From positions 248,001 through 312,000 of the forward strand of contig NZ_BMOQ01000005.1 in NCBI RefSeq assembly GCF_014647155.1: a stretch of DNA of 64,000 nt. Direction: 5' to 3'. The DNA is from Halarchaeum nitratireducens. GTDB taxonomy: Archaea > Halobacteriota > Halobacteria > Halobacteriales > Halobacteriaceae. Positions 60,198 to 63,054 of the stretch are shown piece after piece. The notes below the pieces were generated by a model that did not search any database, was not told where the DNA came from, and worked only from the letters and a program-made list of their open reading frames with translations. Each line of letters begins with the position of its first letter. Position 1 is the stretch's first letter. The position numbers were made by a program, and so were the translations under genes.

Positions 60198-60434
60198 ATG
60201 AGTCCAGAGGAAGTCCAGCGACGGATCGAGGACCGGCTGCCCGAGTGCGACGCCGACGTCACCCGTGCGCGGGGGAAACACGACGACGACCACCTCGCCG
60301 CGACCGTCGTCTCGCCGTCCTTCGAGGGCGAGACCATCGTCGATCAACACCAGCAGGTGTACGACGCGCTCGGCGACGCGATGACGACGGAGATCCACGC
60401 GCTCGAACTGACGACGAAGACGCCCGAGGAGTAG
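60198..60434 (+). CDS. BolA-like protein
   Basis: A 78-residue protein: MSPEEVQRRIEDRLPECDADVTRARGKHDDDHLAATVVSPSFEGETIVDQHQQVYDALGD is the body in order, with the BolA pattern of strand, Fxxk/Hxx motif (DQHQQVYDALGD) and a short C-terminal helix. BolA/IbaG proteins interact with monothiol glutaredoxins in Fe-S handling. The glutaredoxin partner is not in the window. Confidence 0.78.
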   Translation: MSPEEVQRRIEDRLPECDADVTRARGKHDDDHLAATVVSPSFEGETIVDQHQQVYDALGDAMTTEIHALELTTKTPEE

Positions 60435-60630: not shown

Positions 60631-63054
60631 ATGACCGAACACCACATTCCGAAGGGCGTCAGTCTCGACACCCTCCGAGAGATCATCGGCGGGTGGGCCG
60701 AGGCCGGCGCCGACGACGAGCCCCGTTACACCTCGGACGTCGAGGACGTCACCAGCGTCTCCGACGCAGTCGGGCGCCAGACCAGATTTCTGGAGGAGCT
60801 CGGGATCATCGAGCCCCATCGGCAGAAGCACCGACTGACCGACGCCGGCGAGGAGATCGCCGCAGCGCTGACCGAGGGCGAGGGGGAGCGGAGCCGCGAG
60901 CGAATGCGGGATCTCCTGTCCGACTGGGAACTCACCGAGGACGTCCGGGGAGTCCTCGATAGGAACCCCACGACGGCAGCGGAGCTCGTACCGATCGTCG
61001 CCGACCTGGCCGGTCAGGATCTGGAGACCAGCCGCGTCAGGACGGGGGTGACGACGCTACTGGATCTCTACGAGTGGGCGGGCCTGGTGGAGCGCGACGA
61101 GGACGACCGGCTCCGACTCCCTGAGTCCTCCGCGTCCGCGGTGGCCGACCAGACGTCCGAGGACGCAGTCGAGGCGACGGACCGGCCGACGGGAGAGTCC
61201 GGAGAAGCCCCCGGCGGGGAGGTCGCCGGGAGCGAAGCGAACGGGCCCGTCGGGTCCGCCGAGGAGGCTTCTCCCGAACGCGTCTCTGCCGACGTCGAGA
61301 CGGCCAGGGAAACCGCCGAAGAGGCGGCCGGCGTCGCCGATCGAGCGGCCTCTGCCGCCGAGTACGCGACGGATGAAACCGGGGCGGCGGACGCGTCCGA
61401 ACGGATCGAGCAGACGATCGAGGACATCGCCGAACGGGTCGTGACCGATACCGCACGGGCCGCGGCCAGCCGAGCAGCGAGGGAGACGGCCGAGAAGGTG
61501 GTCGAAGAGACCGCCGCGTCGGCTGCCGAAGAGGTCGCCGCGGACGTCGCGGCCGACACCGCCGCGGACGTCGCGGAGGAACGGGCGACGGACGTCGCTC
61601 GCGACCTCGCGGAGGAAACCGCGACCGACGTGGTCGAGAGGACGGCCGACGACCTGCAGACGACCGCGACGACCGCCGAGGAGGCCGCCGAGACGGCACG
61701 TCGGGTCGCGGAGCGGGTCGAGTCGGAGACCGTCGATGAGGAGTCGATCGAAGAGACCGCGGCGGAAACCGCCCGCGAGACCGCGCGTGAGGTCGCTCGA
61801 ACGTCGGCACGGGAGACCGCGGCCGAAACCGCCCGCGAGGTCGTCGAGGACGCCGCGGACGAGGTGGAACGCGCCGCCGAGACCGCGGCGAACGCCGCCG
61901 AAACCGTCGAGGACCTCGCCGAGAGCGCTCAGACGACGACCGCCGAGTCAGCCACGGAGGCGGCCGCCCGAGCCGCGGAGGACGGTGCCGAGGAGGCCGA
62001 AGCTGACGAGCCAGCGGCCGAGGACGTCCCTGAGCCCGCGTCACAGGCCGAAGAGGCGCTCACCGAGGCCGTGGAGGGGACCGGTGGGGACGTCGCGGAG
62101 GCAGCCGAGGAGGTGACGCGTGACCTCCTCGAGGACGCCGGGAAGATCGAGATCTCGGTCGGCGACGAGCCGAGCGTGGAGATAACCGTCGACGAGGAGT
62201 CCGGCACCGAAATCAGCCTCGATAGTGACGCCGACTTACGGGACGTCGACCTTCCCGACGGGATCCAAATCGACACGGGGAGTTCGGGCCACGAAGGCGG
62301 CGAAACGTCCGGGTCCGACGACCTACAGGCCGACGGTGGTGTCGGGGACCCCGTTCCCGACGGCGGTTCGGTCGAGCTCTCCGAGGAGGACGACACCGTC
62401 CGGATCGACATCGGCGCGGGCCCGGGAATCACGATCTCCCTCGACGAGGAACCGGAGGACGCGACCGAGCCCGCGGAGGAGACCGCGGAATCCGACGAGG
62501 GGACTGCGGAGTCGCCGTCCGACGAGTCAGAAGAGGCGGTGGCCGAGGAGGGGTCGGAGACGACGGAGGGAGAAGCCACGGAGAGAGCCGGCGAGGCAGA
62601 GCCGGCGGCGGGCGAAGAGGCCGATGAGGCGAGCGACGAAGCAGTCGAAGAGACGACCGACGGAGTCGAAGCGGCTGCTGAGGAGGGAGCCGCCGGGACC
62701 GAAGAGACGGCCTCGGAAGCCGAAGCCGTCGCGGCGGAAACCGAGGACGCGGCCGCAGAGGCGGCTGCGGGCGGACTCGAAGACCTCTCGGACGTCGAGT
62801 CTGTCGGGGAACTCGTCACGGAAATCGCCGAGACGGCCGAGGAAGCCAGAGAGGCCGCTCGCGAGGCCCGCGAGGCGGCAGAGCAGGCACAGGACGCGGC
62901 AGCGCGCGTCACCGGTAACGGCGCCGCGAACGAATCGGGTCCGGCGTCCGAACCTCACGCGCTCTCACTGGACATCGACATCGACGCGGACTCCGAGGAC
63001 CTCGAAGAGATAGTCAGCGGCATCAAGAACGGCTTGGTCACCGAAGAGGACTGA
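60631..63054 (+). CDS. Large protein with two N-terminal winged-helix domains and a long Ala/Glu/Thr helical repeat
   Basis: An 807-residue protein. Residues about 8-85 (VSLDTLREIIGGWAEAGADD...FLEELGIIEPHRQKHRLTDAGEEIA) and about 90-165 (MRDLLSDWELTEDVRGVL...LYEWAGLVER) look like two winged-helix domains. From about 215 to 520 comes a long alpha-helical, 11-residue-like repeat rich in ETAREVA and AETARET, resembling LEA group 3 or apolipoprotein helices. Two short beta-type motifs (KIEISVGDEPSVEITVDEE and TVRIDIGAGPGITISLDEE) follow, then acidic low complexity and a final GLEDLSDVESVGELVTEI domain. I know of no named family. Confidence 0.78.
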   Translation: MTEHHIPKGVSLDTLREIIGGWAEAGADDEPRYTSDVEDVTSVSDAVGRQTRFLEELGIIEPHRQKHRLTDAGEEIAAALTEGEGERSRERMRDLLSDWELTEDVRGVLDRNPTTAAELVPIVADLAGQDLETSRVRTGVTTLLDLYEWAGLVERDEDDRLRLPESSASAVADQTSEDAVEATDRPTGESGEAPGGEVAGSEANGPVGSAEEASPERVSADVETARETAEEAAGVADRAASAAEYATDETGAADASERIEQTIEDIAERVVTDTARAAASRAARETAEKVVEETAASAAEEVAADVAADTAADVAEERATDVARDLAEETATDVVERTADDLQTTATTAEEAAETARRVAERVESETVDEESIEETAAETARETAREVARTSARETAAETAREVVEDAADEVERAAETAANAAETVEDLAESAQTTTAESATEAAARAAEDGAEEAEADEPAAEDVPEPASQAEEALTEAVEGTGGDVAEAAEEVTRDLLEDAGKIEISVGDEPSVEITVDEESGTEISLDSDADLRDVDLPDGIQIDTGSSGHEGGETSGSDDLQADGGVGDPVPDGGSVELSEEDDTVRIDIGAGPGITISLDEEPEDATEPAEETAESDEGTAESPSDESEEAVAEEGSETTEGEATERAGEAEPAAGEEADEASDEAVEETTDGVEAAAEEGAAGTEETASEAEAVAAETEDAAAEAAAGGLEDLSDVESVGELVTEIAETAEEAREAAREAREAAEQAQDAAARVTGNGAANESGPASEPHALSLDIDIDADSEDLEEIVSGIKNGLVTEED

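Follow-up and report, generated by a model that had tools for sequence, protein, structure and literature searches.

The 64,000-nucleotide stretch of Halarchaeum nitratireducens DNA that was analysed here (contig NZ_BMOQ01000005.1, positions 248,001 to 312,000; hereafter the window) contains a gene for an 807-residue protein, most of which is a low-complexity region of Ala/Glu-rich sequence. The striking middle of this protein can divert attention from the conserved parts that define its family, and the locus raises the question of which parts these are, with what genes they are associated in other haloarchaea, and what function they may indicate. The gene is one ORF of 807 codons on the (+) strand (60631..63054), with an ATG start codon at 60631 and a TGA stop codon ending at 63054, as described in the initial annotation. 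The start is supported by homologs, nearly all of which have the same first residue. Upstream of the gene there are a FEN-1 gene and, between the two, a small BolA-like ORF (60198-60434), and downstream there is a convergently oriented sugar ABC transporter. The net charge of the whole protein is -183.

A family defined by its two ends

Results of our analysis indicate that the window protein represents a long form of a hitherto unnamed archaeal family, in which a tandem winged-helix-like head is combined with a strand-helix tail. When the first 170 residues were used as a query against 245 genomes of Halobacteriales, homologs at E < 1e-20 were identified in 20 of them (about 8%), representing several families. 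Within Halobacteriaceae, 13 of 26 genomes have a homolog. The presence of the protein in other haloarchaea and the winged-helix resemblance of its N-terminus (see below) are thus the reverse of the two findings that had been named as capable of refuting the initial annotation. The family as defined here excludes the weak matches to the head in eight further genomes (G004, G073, G150, G194, G212, G365, G391, and G451), which resemble stray hits or winged-helix regulators of a generic kind. No relative was found in the viral contigs searched. The closest named records, as judged by the head, are those of Halospeciosus flavus (76% identity) and of plasmid pCBA1220-01 of Halarchaeum sp. CBA1220 (75%), the latter being an 814-aa protein annotated as hypothetical. 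An aldehyde dehydrogenase gene adjoins the pCBA1220-01 homolog as well as the homolog in another genome of the same genus.

The tandem N-terminal unit of the window protein can be aligned to the family members over about 165 aa, with an identity of 44-75% to the Halobacteriales core members and of 24-34% to the three most divergent ones. In the full-length members both ends are conserved, namely, the head of about 165 aa, which starts with the consensus M-x-x-H-x-I-P-K-G-V, and a C-terminal motif of 31 residues, while the number of residues between them ranges from some 10 to over 650. Members of 216-240 aa (in genomes G130, G171, G124, G569, and G159) comprise the head and the tail with little in between, and the Halobacterium relatives differ in size from 289 to 774 aa despite their close heads. 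This variation indicates that the length of 807 aa is a property of the window branch and not of the family, and the approximately 600 aa that separate the head from the tail are a fast-changing spacer of variable length and not the defining part of the protein. The assignment of the window protein to this head-plus-tail family is well supported. The initial annotation covered the middle of the protein but missed this conserved frame, including the 31-residue tail. A decayed short paralog is present elsewhere in the genome of the window (G000:C4:15667-15828; about 7668-7829 in L064), and intact 216-aa copies occupy the corresponding site in G130 and G171. The long-form gene of Halobacterium hubeiense is interrupted inside the Ala/Glu insert and reads as two ORFs (L038:7396-9906).

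The head (residues 1-165) likely consists of tandem winged helices, as judged by its sequence and predicted structure. In the AlphaFold model, the first winged-helix-like unit (residues 12-82; 60664..60876, (+) strand), which is also conserved among the members, comprises helices 12-26, 40-57, and 67-82, and residues R49 and Q50 in helix 40-57 are nearly invariant in the family. The closest Pfam resemblance of this unit is the haloarchaeal winged-helix domain HVO_A0261_N (PF25213; E 2e-4, 21.8 bits, below the curated cut-off of 35), which matches 16 of 18 members at 29-82, likewise below the cut-off; this domain covers one unit only and lacks counterparts of the second unit, the insert, and the tail. 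The best match in the PDB profile search was the winged helix of Sso10a (PDB 1r7j; residues 18-86, E 0.002). Sso10a is a 95-aa protein with a single wHTH and a coiled coil, whereas the window protein has two units, a tail, and a long insert. The second winged-helix-like unit (residues 86-165; 60886..61125, (+) strand) is predicted to contain helices 86-97, 103-111, 116-126, and 133-149 and short wing strands. AAA_assoc_C (PF09821) gave a weak match across both units (residues 51-156, E 0.0027, 18.7 bits, below the cut-off of 27.6), and in a direct comparison of profiles the probability of its relation to the head was only 15% (E 0.0018). The model of the head was built from two sequences (mean pLDDT 61, pTM 0.60) and has the helix layout expected for two winged-helix units. 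The use of this model as a Foldseek query returned no match with E below 0.001; an IclR winged helix was found with a probability of 0.84 but with E of 1.3. The two N-terminal winged helices of the initial annotation are thus supported, short of proof, by the sub-cut-off Pfam matches, by the similarity to Sso10a, and by a model of moderate quality. The net charge of the head, -20, speaks against the recognition of DNA, although acidity is a general feature of the proteins that bind DNA in haloarchaea.

The C-terminal tail (residues 775-805; 62953..63045, (+) strand) is common to the full-length relatives, including those of 216-240 aa. Its motif reads ALSLDxDxDADPEDLExLVRGIRRGL, and in the window version the strand-like ALSLDIDID is followed by helix 788-802. 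This version scored 47.2 bits against the tail HMM (shuffled sequences, at most 6.6), and the corresponding match in the window's genome was found at C5:310953-311045 with E of 1.5e-13, the window row itself being a part of the model in both cases. The tail may resemble that of bacterial DUF5343 (PF17278) proteins. Membership in DUF5343 was rejected, as the Pfam scan gave no match to this domain in the window protein or in the members scanned; a search of plasmids with a DUF5343-type tail sequence gave no match either. A search for the domain in 146 genomes had no match even in the controls and is uninformative as to its presence in the clade.

In accordance with the initial annotation, which knew of no named family with this order of parts, no curated Pfam or NCBIfam model reached its cut-off in the window protein, and PHROGs and PADLOC gave nothing for it. 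The family is unnamed, yet it is of a known kind, that of multi-wHTH accessory proteins.

The spacer between head and tail

The spacer begins with a low-complexity linker (residues 166-214; 61126..61272, (+) strand) with no predicted structure (pLDDT about 30), followed by an Ala/Glu/Thr/Arg-rich helical insert (residues 215-503; 61273..62139, (+) strand), in which helices 215-244, 252-362, 370-456, 470-481, and 485-503 were predicted with low confidence. The full-length AlphaFold model, also built from two sequences, has a mean pLDDT of 44.9 and is too poor to indicate a tertiary structure. The Ala/Glu/Thr-rich composition reported for the middle was confirmed (A 23%, E 21%, T 10%, and D 9%), but its repeats are not the 11-mers of that report. 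In residues 251-460, sequence identity is elevated at lags of 4, 8, and 12 (z = 5.3, 5.2, and 3.6) and not at a lag of 11 (z = -0.2), and the hydrophobicity power has its maximum near 4.0-4.1 residues. The true period is therefore 4, with a tetrad unit of roughly [DE]-[VT]-A-x. The same period characterizes the nearest long forms (L029, L030, and L039), while the inserts of the Halobacterium branch and of L032 have periods of 7 and 11 residues instead; this difference among relatives points to a helical spacer and not to a fixed repeat. At the DNA level, Tandem Repeats Finder detected only short arrays of 12 and 24 bp.

Two beta motifs follow the helices. Motif 1 (residues 505-547, KIEISVGDEPSVEITVDEESGTEISL...DLPDGIQI; 62143..62271, (+) strand) contains strands 506-508 and 516-519, predicted with low confidence, and motif 2 (residues 580-607, SVELSEEDDTVRIDIGAGPGITISLDEE; 62368..62451, (+) strand) is similar to it. 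Between residues 507-523 and 591-607, 7 of 17 positions are identical, and the best 17-mer self-match within residues 504-620 has a score of 40, as compared to 28 +/- 4.6 for shuffled sequences (p 0.018). Both motifs recur in the long homologs, so that the matching pair noticed in the initial annotation is real, and their conservation implies that the insert is not wholly neutral. The region described there as an acidic tail corresponds to a second helical acidic stretch (residues 667-762; 62629..62916, (+) strand) with predicted helices 667-714 and 722-762 of low confidence and a hydrophobicity period of 3.5 in residues 721-765; that description was incomplete, as the stretch is followed by the conserved 31-residue motif, which had not been listed.

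Relatives in plasmid cassettes and stand-alone long forms

A match to the tail alone in genome G017 revealed a 313-aa head-plus-tail protein (locus L103), encoded directly upstream of a DUF87/HerA ATPase gene (DUF87, E 6e-13; PADLOC HerA, E 7e-28). Against an HMM built without L103, its tail scored 43.5 bits, as compared to at most 6.3 for 500 shuffled sequences, and the tail of the protein of locus L141 scored 21.7 bits in the same held-out test. In addition, the head profile of the family aligned end to end with the profile of the heads from HerA operons and of double-head relatives (hhalign probability 89%, E 2.1e-6, 146 columns). Together, the held-out tail match and the alignment of head profiles tie the family to a HerA/DUF87 cassette that is carried by plasmids. 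HerA is encoded in one operon with a family member in L103, in L141, and in the Haloarcula plasmid relatives. The order of genes in the cassette is a gene of 137-140 aa, the head-plus-tail gene, and the HerA gene, with the gene of an AAA_assoc_C protein and small winged-helix genes on the other strand; genuine AAA_assoc_C proteins are thus constituents of the cassette, while the head of the window protein resembles them only weakly. The cassette is also present on plasmid pSTJ003 of Halobacterium hubeiense, and its main parts on a plasmid of Haloarcula sp. SYNS111. Several small winged-helix genes accompany it in three genera (L103:5278-10258, L141:7698-12375, and L145/L146). On the SYNS111 plasmid the cassette adjoins genes of type B DNA polymerase and Orc1/Cdc6, and the proximity of replication genes on this one plasmid makes plasmid maintenance a possible role instead of defence. 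Either of these functions may be served by the HerA plasmid cassettes.

The second context of the family comprises an XPB-like helicase gene and a gene of about 325 aa with an invariant R-x4-5-H motif, the product of which can be called HEPN-like by this motif only, as searches of Pfam, PADLOC, NCBIfam, and PDB did not corroborate a HEPN identity. The latter gene was found in four genomes: in G003 and G159 it adjoins head-plus-tail genes, and in G117 and G169, related double-head genes. In G159, the helicase gene is followed by a head-plus-tail gene, the HEPN-like gene, and a converging second head-plus-tail gene, with a CRISPR array beside; in G003, a head-plus-tail gene and the HEPN-like gene are present. 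In G117 (a plasmid of Haladaptatus QDMS2) and in G169, the HEPN-like gene is accompanied by a 506-aa double-head gene, the product of which shares the head, although its tail score was not above that of shuffled sequences. The CRISPR array (L047:11780-14040), which adjoins the cassette of helicase, head-plus-tail, and HEPN-like genes, has over 30 copies of a 30-bp repeat (GCTTCAACCCCTCATAGGTACATCTGGAAC) spaced by about 65 bp. Outside Halobacteria, the gene of a distant 224-aa head homolog in G344 is flanked by AAA_assoc_C-type genes, with HepT-like and EVE-domain genes in the vicinity.

The long form in the genome of the window is a chromosomal, stand-alone version. There is no HerA/FtsK gene in its operon, no gene of the R-x4-5-H partner was found in the genome, and its neighbours (FEN-1, BolA-like, and ABC transporter genes) include no motor or effector gene. 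Among genera, the long forms have no common neighbours, apart from a loose proximity to an aIF-1A-like gene. In seven genomes, which belong to two families (L032, L034, L035, L037, L038, L040, and L041), such a gene, scored within the 18-kb loci of the carriers, is located at most several kb from the family member, and a block of Obg-type GTPase and rhodanese genes also recurs among the carrier loci, which together soften the notion that synteny is wholly unconserved.

Possible function of the family

In HerA/FtsK anti-invader systems, fast-evolving multi-wHTH proteins have been proposed to act as recognition subunits (PMC10853773, PMC12839542). The motors that accompany the present family act by moving or opening DNA. 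By analogy, the head may recognize DNA or a DNA-bound partner, and the tail may form homo- or hetero-oligomers by strand pairing or serve for docking. Tentatively, we favour the interpretation that the family consists of recognition or adaptor proteins with a DNA-binding head and an oligomerising tail, parted by a long acidic spacer in the window protein, which would place a DNA motor or an effector on particular DNA. If this is true, the head and the tail would be a candidate for a portable module for the targeting of DNA motors. DndG, SspB, and DUF4007/BrxA are fast-evolving winged-helix proteins associated with HerA/FtsK (PMC10853773, PMC12839542), and direct relatives of the window protein likewise accompany a HerA motor on haloarchaeal plasmids. 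However, no sequence match of the window protein to those families was found in Pfam or PADLOC, and the window protein has two wHTH units instead of the three of those systems, no HerA neighbour, and an insert of 600 aa. The neighbourhood of the window gene, devoid of motor and effector genes, the lack of the R-x4-5-H partner in the genome, the lack of shared neighbours among the long forms, and the sub-cut-off matches and moderate model behind the winged-helix assignment also speak against the adaptor role.

Alternatively, the protein could be a one-component transcription regulator, with winged helices binding one or a few promoters, a dimerising tail, and an insert that is a neutral low-complexity expansion in an acidic proteome. 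The nearest Pfam resemblance of the head, HVO_A0261_N, the stand-alone chromosomal location of the gene in most carriers, and the very different insert lengths of near relatives, such as the Halobacterium proteins of 289 to 774 aa, are consistent with such a function. We consider it rather unlikely, as there is no conserved adjacent target gene across genera and no ligand domain, relatives accompany DNA motors, and the conserved beta motifs argue against a neutral insert. If, instead, the long helices were the working part, a rod or a filament anchored by the head, the protein would be a scaffold of the nucleoid or of the envelope. Several hundred residues are predicted to be helical, with a strong periodicity of 4 residues (7 and 11 in relatives), and Sso10a, the best match in the PDB profile search, has a coiled coil in addition to its winged helix. 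Nevertheless, intact head-plus-tail genes without the helices exist, the length and period of the helices vary within the family, and its presence is patchy, which renders a scaffold improbable. As to the envelope, an inspection of the sequence by eye revealed neither a hydrophobic segment nor a signal peptide. Thus, of the DNA- or envelope-associated role suggested in the initial annotation, the former half is better supported, because relatives adjoin genes of HerA, XPB-like motors, and other winged-helix proteins.

The stress protectant proposed there, folding on drying in the manner of LEA proteins under desiccation or salt stress, is largely refuted and in our opinion very improbable. The protein is indeed very acidic, of low hydrophobicity, and rich in Ala/Glu/Thr, and it has predicted helices of such composition in common with group 3 LEA proteins (LEA_4). 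The latter, however, have a period of 11, in contrast to 4 in residues 251-460 of the window protein, which has conserved ends and no match to an LEA family in the Pfam listing up to E 10. Moreover, the gene is absent from over 90% of haloarchaea facing equal stress, and the relatives of 216-240 aa, which lack the Ala/Glu region, indicate that this region is dispensable.

Returning to the recognition or adaptor role, the acidic, mostly helical spacer of the window version, with its two beta motifs, would keep the head at a great distance from the tail, which would allow several heads bound to DNA to be joined through their tails. A more far-reaching proposal, which we regard as doubtful, is that the head-plus-tail adaptor family provides the recognition subunit common to two or more haloarchaeal systems of plasmids or of defence that are as yet undescribed (HerA/DUF87, and XPB-like helicase with a HEPN-like protein), and that the long chromosomal forms with the tetrad-repeat acidic helical spacer are a domesticated, DNA-bridging branch of this family. 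What makes the locus interesting is the family with its cassettes, more than the helical middle: the window protein gives access to a haloarchaeal protein family absent from the catalogues and to two compact recurrent cassettes, HerA and XPB-like helicase with HEPN-like, the small subunits of which are unnamed in defence and domain libraries.

The window protein probably works without a dedicated partner encoded in its neighbourhood, possibly with chromosomal paralogs of HerA or XPB. The co-occurrence of these with the long forms is uninformative, since a chromosomal HerA or XPB is present in nearly all long-form carriers searched (G025 and G037 have only a weak HerA match and no XPB match). 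The XPB/Rad25-like helicase in the genome of the window (G000:C4:279616-282981; L149:2617-5982) is interrupted in frame by about 490 aa, the ends of which are intein-like, and a similarly split pattern of XPB matches was observed in G130 and G569.
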